From Dehalococcoidia bacterium (lineage in GTDB: Bacteria; Chloroflexota; Dehalococcoidia; JACVQG01): a stretch of DNA of 11,077 bases. The stretch spans positions 1 through 11,077 of the forward strand of contig JACVQG010000018.1 in the NCBI GenBank assembly GCA_015661045.1, in the 5' to 3' direction. Shown here piece after piece: positions 1,609-10,738 of the stretch (position 1 is the first letter of the stretch; each line of letters begins with the position of its first letter). The notes beneath the pieces are model-generated. The model was not told the DNA's origin. It searched no databases and worked only from the letters and a program-made list of their open reading frames with translations. The translations under genes and the position numbers were made by a program.

Positions 1609-2568
1609 TTGATTAGAACATCTATTTGTGACCTCTTTGGTATCGAATATCCTATCATCCAGGGAGGGATGGCCTGGCTGGGAACAGCCGAGCTAGCCGC
1701 TGCCGTGTCCGAGGCTGGTGGACTTGGAACTATCGGCGCTGGTAGCTGCCCCGTTTCCTGGGTAAAGGAGCAAATTTATCTTACGAGGGAGCGAACAAGC
1801 AAACCTTTCTGTGTTAATATACTTCTTATGTCCCCTTATGCCAGGGAAGTTATAGAATTAGTTATAAAAGAAAAGGTACCCGTGGTGGCCACTGGCGCCG
1901 GCAACCCGGGTATTTTTGTGCCCGGATTCAAAGAGGCCGGAATTAAAGTGATGCCGGTGGTCTCCAGTGTGCCACTCGCCCGGCGGCTGGAGCGGTCCGG
2001 AGTGGATGCGATTGTTGCCGAAGGGATGGAATCAGGGGGACATATCGGAGAGACAACCACTTTAGCCCTTTTACCCCAGGTGATAAACGCAGTTCATATC
2101 CCGGTGATAGCTGCGGGCGGGTTTGCTAACGGAGCAGGTCTGGTGGCTGCGCTGGCTATGGGAGCGCAGGGAATTCAAATGGGGACTCGCTTTATTTGCA
2201 GTGACGAATGTATAGCCCACCCTAAATTCAAACAAAAAATCGTAGATTCGGGCGACCGGGCTACAACGGTAACCGGAGGCCCGACCGGACACCCTATCCG
2301 TTGCCTGGAGAACAAACTTACCCGCCAGTTTCATTCCCTGGAGAAAGCCGGGGCTACTGTAGAGGAATTACAAGCTTTGGGCACAGGGAAATTCTACCAG
2401 GGGGTTATCGAAGGGGATGTTGAGGAAGGTTCATTGATGGCCGGCCAGATAGCTGGTTTTATAAAGGATGTTAAACCATGCCGCCAAATATTGCAGGAAA
2501 TAATGGCCGAAGCTGAAGCAATAGTTGAACGGTTGGCGGTATTGCCCAAGAAGGAGGCCCGTGTATAA
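1609..2568 (+). CDS. fabK: Enoyl-ACP reductase II, FMN-dependent (FabK)
   Basis: The 319-residue protein is a TIM-barrel flavoprotein of the nitronate monooxygenase/FabK superfamily. In fatty acid synthesis FabK reduces trans-2-enoyl-ACP with NAD(P)H and FMN. Visible signatures are YPIIQGGMAWLGTAELAAA at residues 14-32, GAGNPG at 96-101, the ESGGHIGE segment at 141-148 with the conserved H145, and the phosphate-binding stretch PVIAAGGFANG at 165-175 followed by MGAQGIQMGTRF at 184-195. Length matches FabK (about 320). The start is TTG 1609, preceded by AGGAAGG at 1598-1604. Being directly upstream of fabD and fabG supports FabK rather than a nitronate monooxygenase. Its 3' end overlaps fabD by 8 bases. 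Confidence 0.9.
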   Translation: MIRTSICDLFGIEYPIIQGGMAWLGTAELAAAVSEAGGLGTIGAGSCPVSWVKEQIYLTRERTSKPFCVNILLMSPYAREVIELVIKEKVPVVATGAGNPGIFVPGFKEAGIKVMPVVSSVPLARRLERSGVDAIVAEGMESGGHIGETTTLALLPQVINAVHIPVIAAGGFANGAGLVAALAMGAQGIQMGTRFICSDECIAHPKFKQKIVDSGDRATTVTGGPTGHPIRCLENKLTRQFHSLEKAGATVEELQALGTGKFYQGVIEGDVEEGSLMAGQIAGFIKDVKPCRQILQEIMAEAEAIVERLAVLPKKEARV

Positions 2569-3526
2569 AAGCAAAATTAAGGTGCATAAGTCCAAAAACA
2601 CGCCAAAGATAGCTATTGTTTTCCCGGGACAGGGCAGTCAGCGAGTGGGAATGGGCTTGGACCTATATAAGACATCACCGGCGGCCCGGGCAGTTTTCGA
2701 AGCTGCCGATGATACGCTTGGTTTTTCTTTATCATCGCTCTGTTTTGAAGGTCCCGATGAAGAGTTACGGCGAACGATAAACACCCAGCCCGCCATTCTG
2801 GTTGTGAGTATAGCTGCCTTAAAATATGCCCAGGAGCGGGGTTTGCTTGAAGGACAATTTAAACCCGCTTTTGTCGCCGGGCATAGTTTGGGCGAATATA
2901 GCTCCCTGGTTGCAGCAGGTGTATTAAGCTTGCCTGACGCCGTTCGTTTGGTCAGAGAGCGGGGCCGTCTGATGGAAGAGGCCGGGCAGAAATGTCCCGG
3001 AGGTATGGTAGCTCTTCTGGGATTGAACGAAGGCACAGCAGAGGAAATTTGCCAGGTAACTGGAACCGAGATAGCGAATATTAACTGTTCCGGACAGATT
3101 GTTATCAGTGGCTCAAAAAATGCCATTTCCAATGCCATAGACGTAGCCAGAGCCAAAGGAGCACGCCGGGCAATCTCTCTGGATGTTAGCGGCGCTTTCC
3201 ATTCGTCTCTAATGCAGTGGGCGCGGCGCGGACTTAAAAGAGTTATCGATGTCCTCCATTTCCATAACCCCAGGATCCCTATAATAGCCAATACCACGGC
3301 TAAGCCCCTCATCCGGGCCAATGCCGTCAGGGCCGAACTGCAAAATCAGCTTTGCCGGTGCGTTCACTGGCAAAAATCCGTAGAATTTATGCGTGACGAG
3401 GGGGTCAGCACCTTTGTGGAGCTAGGACCTGGGGATGTGCTCACCGGCCTTATCCAGCGTATCTGCCCCGATGCAAAGGCATTTAAGCTGAATGATTTAA
3501 TCGCTCTCGAGGGAGCCCGCTCCTGA
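2561..3526 (+). CDS. fabD: Malonyl-CoA:ACP transacylase (FabD)
   Basis: FabD moves the malonyl group from CoA to acyl carrier protein for chain elongation. The 321-residue product contains the oxyanion-loop motif FPGQGSQ at 21-27, the nucleophile elbow GHSLGEYSS with Ser109, and SGAFHSSLM with His214, so the Ser-His pair is intact. Length is typical (about 310). The frame is open further upstream, but GTG 2561 is preferred because AAGGAGG lies at 2551-2557 just before it; spacing is short (3 bases). GTG 2582 is a poorer alternative. The start overlaps the fabK stop by 8 bases and the fabD stop overlaps the presumed fabG start (CTGA), so the three genes are probably translated in a coupled way. 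Confidence 0.93.
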   Translation: MYKSKIKVHKSKNTPKIAIVFPGQGSQRVGMGLDLYKTSPAARAVFEAADDTLGFSLSSLCFEGPDEELRRTINTQPAILVVSIAALKYAQERGLLEGQFKPAFVAGHSLGEYSSLVAAGVLSLPDAVRLVRERGRLMEEAGQKCPGGMVALLGLNEGTAEEICQVTGTEIANINCSGQIVISGSKNAISNAIDVARAKGARRAISLDVSGAFHSSLMQWARRGLKRVIDVLHFHNPRIPIIANTTAKPLIRANAVRAELQNQLCRCVHWQKSVEFMRDEGVSTFVELGPGDVLTGLIQRICPDAKAFKLNDLIALEGARS

Positions 3527-4275
3527 CCTCAGACCTTACCTCAAAAGTTGCTGTTATAACGGGCAGTTCCCGCGGAATTGGCCGGGCGGTAGCATTAAAG
3601 CTAGCGGAGCAAGGGGCATCCGTTGTGGTGAACGGGCATAAAGACCCGGCTTTAGTGCAATCGCTGGCTGAAGAAATCCAGGCTAAAGGCGGCCAGGCCC
3701 TCGGAGTAATCGCCGATATATGCCAGGCCCAGGGATGTTCTCAGCTAATCCAGTCCACTCTATCCAAATTCGGCAGGCTCGATATCATGGTCAATAATGC
3801 CGGCATCGTCCGGGACCAGCTATTAATCCGGATGAGTGACGACGAATGGGACCAGGTCATAAACACCAATCTCCGGGGTGCTTTCCTCTGTACCCGCGCC
3901 GCTATCCGGCCAATGTTGAAGCAACGTTGGGGACGGATTATTAACATCGCCAGTATCGCCGGAATAGTAGGGAATTCGGGACAGGCAAACTACGCCGCCG
4001 CCAAAGCGGGGCTGATTGCCTTTACCAAGAGTCTGGCCCGAGAGGTAGCCTCCCGTGGTATTACAGCGAATTCCATAGCCCCTGGATTTATCAAAACCGA
4101 CATGACTCAACGTCTCAGCGCCTCTGCGCAGGAAGAGATTATCAAGAAGATTCCTCTGGGTTTCGTCGGTGCCCCCGAAGATGTCGCCGAAGCCGTTGCT
4201 TTCCTGGCCTCCGAAAAGGCCCGATACATCACCGGCCAGGTGCTGGTGGTGGATGGCGGGTTTACTATGGTGTAA
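3523..4275 (+). CDS. fabG: 3-oxoacyl-ACP reductase (FabG), probable CTG start
   Basis: FabG is the NADPH-dependent SDR that reduces 3-ketoacyl-ACP in chain elongation. Taken from CTG 3523 the product has 250 residues, the family norm, and carries TGSSRGIG at 13-20, NNAG at 91-94, Asn116, Ser144, Tyr157 and Lys161, the full SDR catalytic tetrad with the expected 13-residue Ser-Tyr spacing. The first usual start codons in frame are the GTG pair at 3622-3627, which would delete the whole nucleotide-binding motif. Upstream, the frame contains no ATG, GTG or TTG back to the stop at 3493-3495. CTG 3523 overlaps the fabD stop and has GAGGGAG at 3509-3515, 7 bases away. The terminator at 4327-4355 follows the gene. 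Confidence 0.93.
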   Translation: MTSDLTSKVAVITGSSRGIGRAVALKLAEQGASVVVNGHKDPALVQSLAEEIQAKGGQALGVIADICQAQGCSQLIQSTLSKFGRLDIMVNNAGIVRDQLLIRMSDDEWDQVINTNLRGAFLCTRAAIRPMLKQRWGRIINIASIAGIVGNSGQANYAAAKAGLIAFTKSLAREVASRGITANSIAPGFIKTDMTQRLSASAQEEIIKKIPLGFVGAPEDVAEAVAFLASEKARYITGQVLVVDGGFTMV

Positions 4276-4326
4276 TTTTCACCTAATAGCGAACCCCTTT
4301 TATTTTATAAATTATGTTGCTATCAT

Positions 4327-4355
4327 AGAGGGCATCGGAAGATTGCCCTCTTTTT
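4327..4355 (+). terminator. Intrinsic terminator of the fab operon
   Basis: AGAGGGCA (4327-4334) pairs perfectly with TGCCCTCT (4344-4351) around a 9-base loop, and a run of five T ends at 4355. It lies 51 bases after the fabG stop and 29 bases before the next gene, so it closes the yceD-rpmF-fabKDG unit. Confidence 0.88.
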
Positions 4356-4384
4356 CATTCAACACTTACCATCAGGAGGTTATT

Positions 4385-5200
4385 ATGGGATTAGAGATGT
4401 TCTCACTTAAGGACAGGGTAGCTATTGTTACCGGAGGGGGGCGGGGTATCGGCCAGGCTACCGCTTTGGGCCTCTCCCAGGCTGGAGCTAAAGTAGTTGT
4501 AGCTGCCCGCACCGAATCGGAGATAGAGGAGACAGCCTCTCAAATTCGCGCCCAGGGAGGCCAGGCCCTGGCTGTGTCCACCGACGTGGTAAACGAGGCA
4601 TCCATAGATAACCTGGTTAAGAAAACCCTGGCAAAGTTTGGACAGATAGATATACTGGTCAACAATGCCGGTGGGGTAATGGAACCGGGTGGCGCTCTCA
4701 CAGGCTTCACTATGACTACCAGCGGCGAGGCGTGGGATAGCGTGCTGCGTAAAAACCTCAAAAGCGCCTTCCTGTGCAGCAAAGCGGTGGCTAAAAGTAT
4801 GATAGAGCGACGCCGGGGCAGCATTATCAATATCGGGTCTATGTCAGGGTTACATGCCGACCCGCCGATGACCGCCTACGGTATCGCCAAAGCTGGGGTT
4901 ATACACCTGACTAAAAACCTCTCCAAAGAATTGGGCGGCTATCAGATACGGGTTAACTGCATCTGCCCCGGGCTTATGGGCACCCCCCGTGTGAAGCATC
5001 GGGTCCAGCTAATCGAGGAAAAAGACCCTGGTTTTATGCAGAAGGCCATAACCCTGGGCCGTCTGGGAGCCATCAGCGACCTGGTCGGGGCCATGATATT
5101 TTTCGCCTCCGATGCCTCGTCCTACGTTACCGGTGAAATACTCGGTATAAACGGCGGCTTTTCGGGATATACACCACCCCAGGGGCCGGGGAATTGGTAA
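4385..5200 (+). CDS. SDR family oxidoreductase (FabG-like, classical)
   Basis: This 271-residue classical short-chain dehydrogenase/reductase has TGGGRGIG at 16-23, NNAG at 93-96, Asn124, Ser152, Tyr165 and Lys169, so it should be an active NAD(P)-dependent alcohol or ketone oxidoreductase. R43 (AARTESE) after the second strand suggests an NADP preference, as a weak inference. An insertion around residues 97-116 (GGVMEPGGALTGFTMTTSGE) makes it longer than FabG and probably shapes the substrate pocket. The start ATG 4385 has AGGAGG at 4374-4379, 5 bases upstream; the frame extends further back but through the operon terminator. It is a paralogue, not a duplicate, of the adjacent fabG. It is followed by a GlcG-like gene. 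The substrate is unknown. Confidence 0.9.
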   Translation: MGLEMFSLKDRVAIVTGGGRGIGQATALGLSQAGAKVVVAARTESEIEETASQIRAQGGQALAVSTDVVNEASIDNLVKKTLAKFGQIDILVNNAGGVMEPGGALTGFTMTTSGEAWDSVLRKNLKSAFLCSKAVAKSMIERRRGSIINIGSMSGLHADPPMTAYGIAKAGVIHLTKNLSKELGGYQIRVNCICPGLMGTPRVKHRVQLIEEKDPGFMQKAITLGRLGAISDLVGAMIFFASDASSYVTGEILGINGGFSGYTPPQGPGNW

Positions 5201-5732: not shown

Positions 5733-5782
5733 TTTAATAGCGTAGGCTGTTATTAAAACTTTGCGCCAAAACCTTTAATAAC
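5733..5782. repeat. Three-arm inverted repeat at the end of the transposase gene
   Basis: TTTAATA (5733-5739) is complementary to TATTAAA (5751-5757), and the longer GTTATTAAA (5749-5757) is complementary to TTTAATAAC (5774-5782). The middle arm can thus pair with either flank. It spans the transposase stop codon and may mark an element boundary; the A/T-rich arms make chance possible. Confidence 0.4.
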
Positions 5783-6343
5783 GCGATCCGTAGGGTCGGG
5801 TTTTAAACCCGACCGCTTGATGTTCGGATTTTCACTATCCATTTCCCATTTGGACGGATTGCATATAATATATTCGCCAATCTGGCTATATTCCCTTTCA
5901 CTCCGAATTATGCGTTCATAATAGCTGCGTTGCCACACTGGTGTGCCTTGAGATTGTCTATTTTCATTTATCTTCCGTGACGAATAGCTTTTAAATGCAC
6001 GGACTATTTCCGATAGCGGTTGCCCCCTCGTAGGGTCGGGTTTCGAACCCGACCGCCCTTCTGCCTCGTGAATAAATATTATCCCGTGAACATGATTGGG
6101 CATAACTATGAATACCTCATTCGTAACTTCAGTGTAATGCATAGGGATATCTTTCCAGCATGATTGCACAATTTCCCCGTATGGATTTAAATTCATTAAA
6201 CTATTCTCGATATTACCGAAGAGACATTGTTTGTCATGGGTACAGATGGTTACGAAATAGGCGCCAGGTTGGGAGTAGTCGTAGCCAGGTAGTCTTATGT
6301 AGCGGCGCTGAGGGAAGAGGTCTCCAGGGATTTTATCATTCAT
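5753..6343 (-). CDS. REP-associated tyrosine transposase (RAYT, IS200/Y1_Tnp family)
   Basis: The 196-residue protein opens with RRYIRLPGYDYSQPGAYFVT (residues 13-32), continues with MPNHVHGIIF containing the metal-binding H84-x-H86, and has QRSYYERIIR (138-147), where Y141 or Y142 should be the nucleophile. These are the marks of single-domain Y1 transposases that cut single-stranded DNA at REP hairpins. Two REP-like palindromes lie inside the frame and encode SGSKPDPT (near 98-105) and SGLKPDPT (near 178-185); neither breaks the frame and the catalytic motifs flank rather than include them. A third copy in opposite orientation is 70 bases upstream of the start. No ribosome binding site precedes ATG 6343, but TATAAT on the minus strand at 6352-6357 would give a nearly leaderless message. 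Confidence 0.9.
   Translation of the reverse strand: MNDKIPGDLFPQRRYIRLPGYDYSQPGAYFVTICTHDKQCLFGNIENSLMNLNPYGEIVQSCWKDIPMHYTEVTNEVFIVMPNHVHGIIFIHEAEGRSGSKPDPTRGQPLSEIVRAFKSYSSRKINENRQSQGTPVWQRSYYERIIRSEREYSQIGEYIICNPSKWEMDSENPNIKRSGLKPDPTDRVIKGFGAKF
5790..5816 (+). repeat. REP-like palindrome, copy 1 (inside transposase gene)
   Basis: GTAGGGTCGGG...CCCGACCGC. The core 5794-5814 has perfect 10-base arms (GGTCGGGTTT and AAACCCGACC) around one T. It shares its flanks (GTAG before, GC after) with copies 2 and 3 and encodes part of the transposase C-terminus on the other strand. Confidence 0.88.
6030..6056 (+). repeat. REP-like palindrome, copy 2 (inside transposase gene)
   Basis: Same 27-base element as copy 1 with a TCG centre; 9-base arms GGTCGGGTT and AACCCGACC (6034-6042 and 6046-6054). 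It falls between the His-x-His motif and the catalytic Tyr region of the transposase, where the protein can tolerate a loop. Confidence 0.88.
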
Positions 6344-7079: not shown

Positions 7080-8177
7080 CTACATCACTATCGTTGCCCT
7101 GGTTACCTTGCCCTGGGCTGATAGCTCAAAGGCGGTGTTGATTTCCTCCAGCTTGAAGGGCTGGGACAGGATATTGCCAAAGGGGTATTTATCCTTGTTG
7201 CGCCGCAGGAAGCCCAGCGCACTGGAGAGCGCCCACGGCTCGTAGGTGCATACGCCAACGATGGTGCGGTTGCCCAGCACCACCGCCGAGGGGTCTATCT
7301 CTACATTCTGTCCGCCTCTGATGTTGCCTATCCACAGGTATTTCCCACCCATCCGAGTCATGCCTATGCCCTCGCGGGACACAGCGGGGATGCCGGTAAG
7401 CTCGGCAACAACATCGGCCCCTCTGCCTTTGGTGAGCTTTCTTAAGGCGCTAATCCGCTCCCGTGGAGTCGGGTTCTGGTTTATATCTATAATGTGGTCG
7501 GCGCCAAAGGCTTTGGCCAGCTTTATACGGTCGGGGTGCTGCTCTATTACAATAATGTTGCCTGCCCCCATCTCGCGAGCAACGGCGATGGCGTTGATGC
7601 CCAGCCCCCCCGCCCCCTGGATAACCACTGTATCCCCCACATTGATGCCTGTCTTGTGGAAGCCATATAGCACCTGGGATAGGGCGCAGTTGGCCGGCGC
7701 TGCCATGTCATCGGGGATTTCATCGGGTACTTTGTACACATACTGTCCGGGCTGGACATAGTAGTATTCGGCGAAGGCGCCTATGAAGTGGGGTGGGGGA
7801 GTCGATGTCTGCCCCAGCCGGGCCATGGTGTTCGGGCAGGCCTGGGGTTGGCCGTGAAGGCAGGCATAGCAGCGCCCGCAGGGGAAGAAATACAGGTAGG
7901 TAACCCGGTCGCCGACCTTGAGCGGCTCGCCGGCGGAATCGGTGGTGACTCCCGCCCCAAGCTCATATACTGTTCCCACCATCTCGTGGCCGATAATGCG
8001 GGGCTGGTCGGCGCCACCCCAGGGGAACTCGCCCTTCCAGACGTGGACATCGGAGCCGCAGATATTGGCGCGGTTGACTTTAACCAGGATCGAGCCCGGT
8101 CCTACCGGTGTCAGGGGGTACTCGACGATCTCCATCGGTATGCCTTTTTTGACGAAGACGGCAGCTTTGCCTTTCAT
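7080..8177 (-). CDS. Zinc-dependent medium-chain alcohol dehydrogenase
   Basis: The 365-residue protein is a medium-chain dehydrogenase (MDR) with both zinc sites. Catalytic site: C40 in NICGSDVH, H64-E65 in GHEMVG, and probably C164. Structural site: C100, C103, C106 and C114. The Rossmann motif GAGGLG is at 188-193 and the acidic E212 at the end of the next strand suggests NAD rather than NADP. The family oxidises secondary alcohols, polyols or threonine-type substrates; the true substrate is not readable. The frame runs open to 8270, but homology starts at MKGKAAVFVKKG (ATG 8177) and a good promoter lies at 8229-8257 inside the extension. An AAAGGAT at about 8185-8191 is the likely ribosome binding site. 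It is transcribed away from the acyl-CoA mutase gene, sharing its 441-base upstream region. Confidence 0.92.
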   Translation of the reverse strand: MKGKAAVFVKKGIPMEIVEYPLTPVGPGSILVKVNRANICGSDVHVWKGEFPWGGADQPRIIGHEMVGTVYELGAGVTTDSAGEPLKVGDRVTYLYFFPCGRCYACLHGQPQACPNTMARLGQTSTPPPHFIGAFAEYYYVQPGQYVYKVPDEIPDDMAAPANCALSQVLYGFHKTGINVGDTVVIQGAGGLGINAIAVAREMGAGNIIVIEQHPDRIKLAKAFGADHIIDINQNPTPRERISALRKLTKGRGADVVAELTGIPAVSREGIGMTRMGGKYLWIGNIRGGQNVEIDPSAVVLGNRTIVGVCTYEPWALSSALGFLRRNKDKYPFGNILSQPFKLEEINTAFELSAQGKVTRATIVM

Positions 8178-8228
8178 TGGTCTTATCCTTTCAATTCTGA
8201 ATGGGGGTATGTTCGGTAGATTGGTATC

Positions 8229-8257
8229 ATTATAGGAGAGGGAAGATGCGATTTCAA
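8229..8257 (-). promoter_or_regulatory. Sigma-70-like promoter for the dehydrogenase
   Basis: On the minus strand TTGAAA (8257-8252) is followed after exactly 17 bases by TATAAT (8234-8229). Transcription would begin near 8222, giving a leader of about 45 bases before ATG 8177. Confidence 0.75.
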
Positions 8258-8393
8258 TGGCAAAAGACATGAAAAATAACTATTCATTGGCTTTGCTTCG
8301 CTTGTTGGCTCTTTGCCAGGATACGAAATTCCCCTTGCCCCCCTTAGATGGTCATTGATTTATTATCATTACAGGTTAGGTATACCGTTTACC

Positions 8394-8618: not shown

Positions 8619-10274
8619 ATGGAAAACGAAGAACTTATTGCTCAAAAGAAACGCCAGTGGCTGGAGAAACATCGCATTAACCAGATTCCAAAGGCGAAAA
8701 GCGAGATAGGCTGCGATATCGAGCCTCTATATACTCCGGACGATGTCCGCCCGGATAACGACCTGGAGAACCTCGGTTTCCCTGGCGAATATCCCTTTAC
8801 GAGGGGGGCTTATCCTGCCATGTACCGCTACAATTTGTGGCAGATGCGCCCTTACTCCGGCTTCGGGACGGCTGAGGCCACCAACAAGCGCTGGAAGTAT
8901 CTTCTATCCCACGGCAGCAGCGGGATTATCTGGGCTTTCGACCTGCCCACTCACCTGGGGATGGACTCGGATGCCCCGGATGCCCGGCGCGAGGTCGGAC
9001 GCGTAGGCGTGGCCATAGATACCCTCAAGGATGTGGAGATTCTTTTCGATGGCATTCCTCTGGATAGAGCGGCCACTACCCTTCAGCTTATCTCCCTGGC
9101 GCCGGTAATGCTGGCCATGTATATTGCGGTGGCTGAGAAACAGGGCGTGCCCCTTTCCACGTTGCATGGCAATATCCCCAATGACCCTCTTATTGAATAT
9201 GTAAGCCGGGGTACCTGGATTTTCCCGCCCGGTCCGTCGGTCCGCTTCGCAGTTGACGCTATGGAGTACTGTATTCAGCATCTGCCGAAGTTCAGCCCGA
9301 TGGCCGTCCGCGGGGGCGTGCTCCGGGAGGGTGGAGCGGATATGGTGCAAGAGATTGCTTACTCCTTTGCTGTAGCTATGGTCTATATGGATGCATTGAT
9401 CAAGCGCGGCCATAGCCCTGATGAAGTGGCCTCCAGGGTTACTTATTATTTTGGAGTCGGAATAGAGTTTCTGGAGGAGGCGGCCTGTTTCCGGGGCGCC
9501 CGGCGGCTATGGGCTAAATTGATGAAGGAGAGATACGGGGTCAAAAGCGCATCGGGCCAGGCCCTTAAGTTCAGCGGCTCGGTCTATGCCAGCAGTTTCC
9601 GTGCACGGGAGCCTGAGATAAATCTGACTCGGGGGGCTTTCGGGCTGCTGGGGCTGGTGTTCGGGGGCACTCAAGGGGCTTTCCTGCCAGCCCTGGACGA
9701 GTCCTTCGCCTTACCTACGGAAAAGACGGCCCGCCTGGCCCTGCGCACCATGCAGGTCTGCGCCTATGAGACCGGCGTAACCAAGACGATTGACCCGCTG
9801 GCAGGTTCGTATTACATCGAGGCACTCACCGATAAAGCAGAGGCGCAGATAGCGAAACTGCTAGATGAGGTCGAAAAAACGGGAGGCGTCGTGCACTGGA
9901 TAGAGAAAGGGCATCTCCAGAGGAAATGCACCGATAATGCCTACCGTGTGGCCAAAGATGAGGAGTCAGGGGAGAAGGTGGTAGTAGCGGTCAACAAGTT
10001 CACTGGTGAGGAAGAGGGGCGTCCGTTTGAAATCCATAAAGCTGACCCGGAGGGAGTGCGCCGTCAGATTGAGCGTCTGAACCAGGTCAGGGTGGAACGG
10101 GATGGTGAAGAAGTGAAGAAGTGTCTGGAGGATTTGCGCCGGGCGGCTAAAGGCACAGAGAACCTGATGCCCTATCTGATTTCCGCTGTCAAAGCCTATG
10201 CCAGCGTGGGTGAAATTATAGAGACGCTGAAGCAGGAATTCGGCCTCTTCCGGGAGCCGGCGGGGGCTTTTTAA
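8619..10274 (+). CDS. Acyl-CoA mutase large subunit, methylmalonyl-CoA mutase-like, divergent
   Basis: The 551-residue product is the catalytic barrel of B12-dependent acyl-CoA mutases without the C-terminal B12-binding domain (no DxHxxG), so it would need a separate small subunit, which is not in this window. Family marks are FTRGAYPAMY (60-69), WAFDLPTHLGMDSD (105-118), VGVAIDTLKD (129-138), FALPTE (363-368) and IDPLAGSYYIE (391-401). Compared from memory with the Propionibacterium enzyme, the match is gap-free at an offset of 10: Tyr89 and Arg207, which hold the substrate carboxylate, are kept as Y79 and R197, but Gln197 is P187, Tyr243 is G233 and the active-site His244 is V234. The RTHSQTSG signature is also lost (residues near 317-325). 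The ribosome binding site AGGGAGG is 6 bases before ATG 8619. It is probably an acyl-CoA mutase with a different or altered reaction; calling it methylmalonyl-CoA mutase would overstate the evidence. Confidence 0.88.
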   Translation: MENEELIAQKKRQWLEKHRINQIPKAKSEIGCDIEPLYTPDDVRPDNDLENLGFPGEYPFTRGAYPAMYRYNLWQMRPYSGFGTAEATNKRWKYLLSHGSSGIIWAFDLPTHLGMDSDAPDARREVGRVGVAIDTLKDVEILFDGIPLDRAATTLQLISLAPVMLAMYIAVAEKQGVPLSTLHGNIPNDPLIEYVSRGTWIFPPGPSVRFAVDAMEYCIQHLPKFSPMAVRGGVLREGGADMVQEIAYSFAVAMVYMDALIKRGHSPDEVASRVTYYFGVGIEFLEEAACFRGARRLWAKLMKERYGVKSASGQALKFSGSVYASSFRAREPEINLTRGAFGLLGLVFGGTQGAFLPALDESFALPTEKTARLALRTMQVCAYETGVTKTIDPLAGSYYIEALTDKAEAQIAKLLDEVEKTGGVVHWIEKGHLQRKCTDNAYRVAKDEESGEKVVVAVNKFTGEEEGRPFEIHKADPEGVRRQIERLNQVRVERDGEEVKKCLEDLRRAAKGTENLMPYLISAVKAYASVGEIIETLKQEFGLFREPAGAF

Positions 10275-10738
10275 GCAGGTATAATCTCTAACAGGATAGA
10301 GCGAATGTAAGTCATCACTTCCTGGCCGGTTTGGTTAAAAGTTGTCTCTTTTATCCTGATGACTGCCCGTTTGGGGTCTTTGCCGGTCGGGCGGACATCC
10401 AGGATTTCGCTGTGAACGGTGATGGTATCGCCGGACTTCACTGGAGCCGTGAATCTCACTTCCTCCAGACCAAGCGCCGCAATCCTTCTCACTTTGTCGT
10501 TATCTATTACTTCAGCGATCCCGCTGCGGTTGGCCAGGCCGATTGCACAGGCCAGCACACATGCCCCGGCCAATATGCGCTCCCCGAAGGGAGTTTGCTT
10601 CATGTATTCCCTGTCGGAATGGATCCGGTCGGTAGTCCAGGTCAGATTAGTGAGCAGGGTGAAATCGCCTTCGCTGATAGTTCTCCCCTGGCTAATGAAT
10701 ACTTTTCCTATAGTGATGAGATTCTCCAAACTGGTCAT
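10271..10738 (-). CDS. MaoC-like hot-dog domain protein (acyl-CoA dehydratase family)
   Basis: The 155-residue protein is a single MaoC-type hot-dog domain, the fold of R-specific enoyl-CoA hydratases and related acyl-CoA dehydratases. It shows the N-terminal GRTISEGDF (18-26), the active-site stretch TTDRIHSDREYMKQTPFGER (35-54) followed by ILAG, and the C-terminal strands APVKSGDTITVHSEILDVRP (98-117). The His of the hydratase motif is present as H40, but the catalytic Asp that normally stands five residues earlier is T35. Hydratase activity is thus doubtful, though D37 could stand in. Its stop codon (10271-10273) overlaps that of the convergent mutase gene in TTAA. The ribosome binding site before ATG 10738 is weak. 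Proximity to the mutase suggests a related acyl-CoA pathway. Confidence 0.87.
   Translation of the reverse strand: MTSLENLITIGKVFISQGRTISEGDFTLLTNLTWTTDRIHSDREYMKQTPFGERILAGACVLACAIGLANRSGIAEVIDNDKVRRIAALGLEEVRFTAPVKSGDTITVHSEILDVRPTGKDPKRAVIRIKETTFNQTGQEVMTYIRSILLEIIPA

Follow-up and report, generated by a model that had tools for sequence, protein, structure and literature searches.

Whether an acyl-CoA mutase can dispense with His244, the residue treated as both general acid and radical protector in these enzymes, is the question raised by a gene at positions 8619..10274 (forward strand) of the window, the 11,077-nucleotide stretch of DNA analysed here. Radical protection in methylmalonyl-CoA mutase (MCM) is reportedly the subject of a published paper. 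The gene encodes a 551-residue mutase large (substrate-binding) subunit without a B12-binding domain of its own. It matches the PF01642 profile over its full length with 549 bits (curated cut-off 22.1) and TIGR00641 with 547 bits (cut-off 303.8), placing it in this superfamily with the corresponding catalytic-domain fold. It falls short of the MCM equivalog NF006944, scoring 441 bits against a cut-off of 876 and matching the profile only to position 552 of 721. In the predicted structural model the mean pLDDT is 74, dropping below 50 for residues 58–78 and 354–378, which include part of the active site. The genome, in 373 contigs and 66.8% complete, contains 15 PF01642 matches including fragments. 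Judged by its sequence, the protein is a B12-dependent carbon-skeleton mutase from an uncharacterised branch in which the active-site histidine typical of the better-known enzymes is missing.

The active site was located by phmmer alignment to Propionibacterium freudenreichii MCM (1e1c), human MCM and 2-hydroxyisobutyryl-CoA mutase (HcmA, 4r3u), in all of which the motif stretches of the query align with no internal gap. An earlier note, made from the sequence with P. freudenreichii numbering, had claimed that the carboxylate-binding Tyr89 and Arg207 were kept and that His244, Tyr243, Gln197 and the RTHSQTSG segment were lost, all of which the alignments bear out. Tyr89 and Arg207, which we take to be the carboxylate-binding residues of MCM, correspond to Y79 (codon 8853..8855, here and below on the forward strand) and R197 (9207..9209), and Glu370, presumably an adenosyl contact, corresponds to E361 (9699..9701). 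Gln197 is replaced by P187 (9177..9179), Ser241 by R231 (9309..9311), Tyr243 and His244 by G233 and V234 (9315..9320), and Asn366 by P357. KFSGSVYA (9567..9590) stands in place of RTHSQTSG, so that His328 and Gln330 become S319 and S321. A gap-free comparison at a constant offset of 10, as the note assumed, is valid only as far as about residue 303; there a one-residue gap against the P. freudenreichii enzyme reduces the offset to 9.

The query thus combines the MCM carboxylate pair with the absence of the MCM signature of His244, Gln197 and Tyr243; relative to MCM (1req, 2xiq) it also lacks the RTHSQTSG segment and the fused B12 domain. Its best solved relative is HcmA (438 bits over residues 33–547), which is likewise a separate large subunit without a B12 domain. 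HcmA keeps His244, Tyr243, Gln197, His328 and Gln330, with Ile/Gln at positions 89/207, whereas the query has Val, Gly, Pro, Ser and Ser at those five positions, with Tyr/Arg. The 89/207 signature of mutases acting on non-carboxylated substrates, as in 2-hydroxyisobutyryl- and isobutyryl-CoA mutase, is therefore absent. Phe with Gln is an alternative form of that signature.

The loss of His244 extends well beyond this gene. A protein database of 5.8 billion entries was searched with the query, and in the 121 sequences formed by the query and its best 120 matches position 244 is occupied by Ile in 92, Leu in 19, Val in six, His in two, and Pro and Asp in one each. A FastTree phylogeny of 295 sequences was built from database matches, genome loci, paralogues from the query genome, 4r3u and 1e1c; it is rich in the best 120 matches each of the query and of P0096, and leaves out ORFs below 400 residues, matches of 400 residues or fewer and contained sequences, including a split paralogue on contig C32. 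The query falls in a clade of 175 members, none of which has His at 244 (Ile 139, Leu 25, Val six, Pro two, Ser two, Asp one). Outside this clade His is found in 116/120 sequences, or 116/119 natural ones, the four exceptions being the engineered H244A crystal sequence 1e1c and three remote paralogues. Support for the 175-member clade is 0.98, with 0.996 for the node just outside (176 members, one of them with His) and 0.0 for the node just inside (174 members). Among the matches listed, family sequences that carry a source name are called methylmalonyl-CoA mutase, acyl-CoA mutase or the like, with one ‘Sbm’. Among the loci listed from named genomes, 80 loci contain 81 mutase ORFs, of which 79 have His244, one is partial at that point and one, L030 from the Desulfarculaceae MAG JdFR-97, belongs to the family. 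The pattern is real and more than chance, and the sequences indicate that loss of His244 is a property of the whole lineage.

The particular residues of the query are less widely shared. The combination of V234, G233 and P187 is confined to the query and to homologues 94% (P0001) and 77% (P0002) identical to it, within a ten-member sub-clade in which position 244 is loosely held (Val four, Pro two, Ser two, Leu two). Clade-wide, G233 and P187 are each found in three members and V234 in six, the consensus at 244/243/197 being Ile/Ile/Ser. The trio is thus conserved among the closest homologues and is not the clade consensus.

The query is under purifying selection. Comparison with its 77% identical orthologue, from a genome of the same genus (G833, contig C184), gives pN 0.143 and pS 0.632, or 0.159 and 1.385 after Jukes–Cantor correction, and hence a dN/dS of ~0.11, a rough value since pS is high (0.63). 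Together with the His-less clade, this bears out the earlier note in regarding the protein as a distinct subfamily rather than a decayed gene. Among 148 genomes of the class, the family model recovered five genes in two genomes at 798–902 bits (contigs C19 and C261 of the query genome, and C184, C167 and C89 of G833), with the next gene at 755. Further class-wide searches returned a member in 4/8, 1/3, 1/85 and 1/3 genomes, none of them new, and in the phylum of L030 a member was present in seven of 395 genomes (L030's own included) at E ≤ 1e-240. A DNA pattern for RG-[IV]-[IL]-x-RE, applied to 400 genomes of the phylum, matched in eight, with no mutase ORF at the matches; this pattern is unable to match the query itself because of Gly233.

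The query genome and G833, from the same genus, also carry a second His-less mutase, L022 (4442–6094 on contig C261 of the query genome) and L165 (4526–6175, G833), with Phe/Gln at 89/207 and Ser at 244. By these residues they have a non-carboxylate signature on a His-less scaffold. They are the only clade members in which Tyr89 and Arg207 are not both kept (173/175).

What has been lost and gained across the family was assessed against 111 comparison sequences chosen for His244, Tyr89 and Arg207, so that those columns are 111/111 by construction; the unselected frequency of His244 is that outside the clade given above. At positions that are conserved within each of the two sets yet differ between them, Ser241 becomes Arg in 174/175 clade members and Tyr210 becomes Trp in all 175. 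Other replacements are Ser362 by Gly (171/175), Thr166 by Asn (170/175), His328 by Thr (163/175), Lys202 by Cys (161/175) and Tyr243 by Ile (155/175). Gln197 becomes Ser or Ala in 164/175 and Gln330 becomes Thr in 142/175. Asn366 is replaced by Pro in 170/175, a position at which Asn is found in only 82/111 of the comparison set. Arg87 and Glu370 are kept in every member, Ser285 in 168/175 and Arg283 in 165/175. In the strand leading to His244, Ser239, Ser241 and Tyr243 alternate with Ile238 and Ile240, an alternation that suggests, from sequence, that Arg241 faces the barrel interior.

These observations support the main interpretation of the earlier note. At a probability of about 0.5, the protein would be an adenosylcobalamin-dependent mutase of a distinct subfamily, active on a carboxylated acyl-CoA, with Arg241 perhaps standing in for His244. 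A separate B12-binding subunit would bring the cofactor, homolysis of the Co–C bond would generate a substrate radical, and Tyr89 and Arg207 would hold the substrate carboxylate. In a substrate with one more carbon in its chain but with its carboxylate held in the MCM manner, the thioester carbonyl would be placed one step further into the barrel; Arg241, to judge from its strand position, could bind it there instead of His244 and Gln197, leaving these two residues free to go.

Relatives from the phylum of L030, a different one from that of the query, provide a genomic context. Seven clustered members (L166–L172, with L172 overlapping L030) were compared, and a CoA-transferase lies directly upstream of the mutase in all six loci that hold upstream sequence, L171 beginning inside the mutase; its best PDB matches are the 4-hydroxybutyrate CoA-transferases 3eh7 and 3gk7. 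Four loci reach further upstream, and each has at least one MaoC hydratase: L167, L168 and L172 carry two MaoC-type genes before the CoA-transferase, and L166 carries a single one, at which point its contig starts. A PF00682 HMG-CoA-lyase-like lyase is found in all three loci that reach further still (L167, L168 and L172); the lyases of L167 and L168 are 64% identical, that of L172 stands at 33% identity, and the L167 enzyme scores 263 bits against the NF004283 hydroxymethylglutaryl-CoA lyase model (cut-off 246). An acyl-CoA dehydrogenase follows in five of the seven (L167–L170 and L172), the other two contigs ending first, and the nearest NCBIfam models for that of L167, acryloyl-CoA reductase and glutaryl-CoA dehydrogenase Acd, are both below cut-off. 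A B12-binding subunit is encoded directly downstream in L166, L167 and L172 and is absent from that position in L168, L169, L170 and L171; B12-binding proteins are present elsewhere in all nine genomes searched. The full candidate pathway cluster, with lyase, two MaoC, CoA-transferase, mutase, B12 subunit, GntR regulator and dehydrogenase, occupies 5627–14371 in L167 and 5747–14927 in L172.

Part of this arrangement was absent from a control set of mutase loci. With matches counted only if they spanned half of the gene used for the search, in control stretches of unequal length (median 16 kb), relatives of the CoA-transferase and of the two MaoC genes (MaoCa and MaoCb) at ≥35% identity were found at none of 79 other mutase loci, and neither was the HMG-CoA-lyase-like gene; distant CoA-transferase matches (23–27% identity) occurred in five. 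The remaining two genes are not family-specific, with dehydrogenase relatives in 6/79 control loci at ≥35% identity (0/79 at ≥50%) and B12-subunit relatives in 55/79 at ≥35%. The cluster is apparently a dicarboxylic-acid breakdown set in uncultured bacteria. It resembles the pseudomonad itaconate/methylsuccinate cluster (ict, ich, ccl, mcd), which as described comprises a CoA-transferase, itaconyl-CoA hydratase, citramalyl-CoA lyase and methylsuccinyl-CoA dehydrogenase (PMC12290011), with the addition of a B12 mutase, which the available part of that source does not name. In the relatives' cluster the lyase belongs to PF00682, the HMG-CoA lyase family; its likeness to ccl, as the latter appears there (PMC12290011), is by function name only.

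The window gene has different neighbours. The CoA-transferase, MaoC, lyase and dehydrogenase cluster is absent around both it and its 77% identical orthologue, and no conserved neighbourhood was seen between these two loci. A MaoC-type hydratase gene (10271..10738, reverse strand) is convergent with the mutase and shares four bases with it; any functional link between the two is conjectural. Its best NCBIfam match, RipB/Ich (itaconyl-CoA hydratase), scores 63 bits, far below the cut-off of 340. Compared with the MaoC genes of the relatives' cluster, it gave no match at 1e-8. The other flank holds a zinc alcohol dehydrogenase (7080–8270, reverse strand). Further upstream, a fabK-fabD-fabG fatty-acid synthesis stretch (1609–4275) lies downstream of a YceD-family gene, and a relative of IS200-like (Y1) transposases (5753–6343, reverse strand) lies between it and the mutase.

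No B12-binding match was found on the 11,077-base window contig. A stand-alone B12-binding subunit, as the earlier note proposed looking for, was found among the nine B12-binding places of the query genome: contig C205 encodes a separate small B12-binding protein (4589–4993 of locus L028), 56% identical to the L167 B12 subunit, with no PF01642 match on that contig. On this likeness, the C205 protein is perhaps the partner that would bring the cofactor to the query mutase. In the same locus (3218–4993), two ORFs resembling, by eye, VOC-type epimerases and a relative of enoyl-CoA hydratases precede it.

For the clustered relatives this reading can be made more specific. The CoA-transferase would activate a dicarboxylic acid and the mutase would interconvert linear and branched dicarboxylyl-CoA, with glutaryl-CoA and methylsuccinyl-CoA, or a homologue, as first substrate candidates; the branched ester would then be dehydrogenated, hydrated and cleaved by the neighbouring enzymes. 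In its most far-reaching form, which is of rather low probability, the reading would make these enzymes a class that achieves the 1,2-shift through Arg241 without His244 or Gln197, the substrate being a dicarboxylyl-CoA with one more carbon than succinyl-CoA (e.g. glutaryl-CoA to methylsuccinyl-CoA), and that opens an undescribed route for linear dicarboxylates through itaconyl- or mesaconyl-type esters to acetyl-CoA and a keto acid. Against the preferred reading as a whole stand the four of seven clusters without an adjacent B12 subunit and the lack of a cluster at the window gene, whose product, from a divergent sub-clade without the cluster, may have a different substrate. The occurrence of dehydrogenase and B12-subunit relatives at control loci, the low model confidence in part of the active site, the changes at some presumed CoA contacts and the variability of position 244 in the query's sub-clade also count against it.

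A mutase of aryl- or alkyl-substituted succinyl- or malonyl-CoA, with Tyr243, His328 and Gln330 lost to make way for a bulky group as might be expected of IaaGH or alkylsuccinate mutases, is an alternative of rather low probability. The closest published bulky-substrate class found is IaaGH, the benzylmalonyl-CoA mutase of indoleacetate degradation in Aromatoleum aromaticum, described in the accessible part of the source as a B12-dependent mutase of a substituted succinyl-CoA, clustered with a CoA-transferase and an acyl-CoA dehydrogenase (PMC8360864), the likeness being by description only. Two plasmid-borne mutases, L173 (6893–8518, Diaphorobacter) and L175 (5938–7593, Marinobacter), are possibly of the indoleacetate type; they have GAHV at the GYH(M/I) motif and lie beside enoyl-CoA hydratase, B12-subunit and CoA-transferase genes, with a GTP-binding protein gene also in L173. 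Like the family, they are without Tyr243, His328 and Gln330 and have Trp at position 210, but they retain His244 and Gln197, and neither an HMG-CoA-lyase-type nor a MaoC gene is among those listed for their plasmid stretches. IaaG was compared only indirectly, through these look-alikes: among 427 plasmid records, all below 60% identity and 25 of them listed, five stretches were examined, all five with His244 and none identified as IaaG.

Less probable still is a free dicarboxylate as substrate in place of a CoA ester, as for glutamate mutase and 2-methyleneglutarate mutase; Arg241 would then bind the second carboxylate. Of the residues that we take to be CoA contacts in MCM, T85, S114, Q197, H244, K321 and Q454 are mostly changed in the clade, and in the query I104 and Q156 are among the changes at such positions; a bulky Arg on a barrel strand would also fit. 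The changes at T85, S114, K321 and Q454 make CoA binding itself uncertain. However, the presumed contacts Y75, M78, R87, T195, R283 and S285 are kept in 164–175 of the 175 members, and the cluster neighbours are CoA enzymes, both of which favour the acyl-CoA mutase preferred above.

That the protein is a catalytically dead partner, like the β chain of heterodimeric MCM, is very unlikely. Several polar active-site residues are indeed lost, but Tyr89, Arg207, Arg87 and Glu370 are retained in 173–175 of the 175. In comparison with the query, the β chain of 1e1c reaches 77 bits and that of 6oxc 48, as opposed to 305–438 for MCM large chains and Hcm, and the small-subunit profile TIGR00642 gives 156 bits, below its cut-off of 617. 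Moreover, a B12 subunit directly follows the mutase in three of seven clusters, and the locus gene lists hold no second large subunit. Finally, a recent inactivating mutation or a sequence error in a single gene, conceivable in so fragmented a genome, can be dismissed given the residues shared with the 94% and 77% identical homologues, the 0/175 clade count and the dN/dS; decay, sequencing error and misalignment are ruled out by these counts, the selection estimate and the alignments.

A natural, conserved lineage without His244, and mostly without Gln197, allows the role of His244 to be probed in an enzyme shaped by evolution instead of by mutagenesis, and the cluster in some members points to a carboxylic-acid pathway in uncultured bacteria so far without assignment. 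No description of a His244-less acyl-CoA mutase family was recognised in the literature searched, which covered few subscription papers.

Other mutases in the data set also depart from the familiar types. On contig C32 of the query genome (locus L023, 9593–11262) a mutase gene is split into two pieces whose frames differ, and one match contains an in-frame TAG; a B12 subunit comes next. This is either a broken gene or an assembly error, and the pieces were treated separately. The three remote paralogues outside the His-less clade, L006 (1065–2660), L122 and L123, have Asn/Glu/Ser, Leu/Ser/Asn and Val/gap/Asp at 89/207/244, and by these residues appear to be further uncharacterised mutase types.
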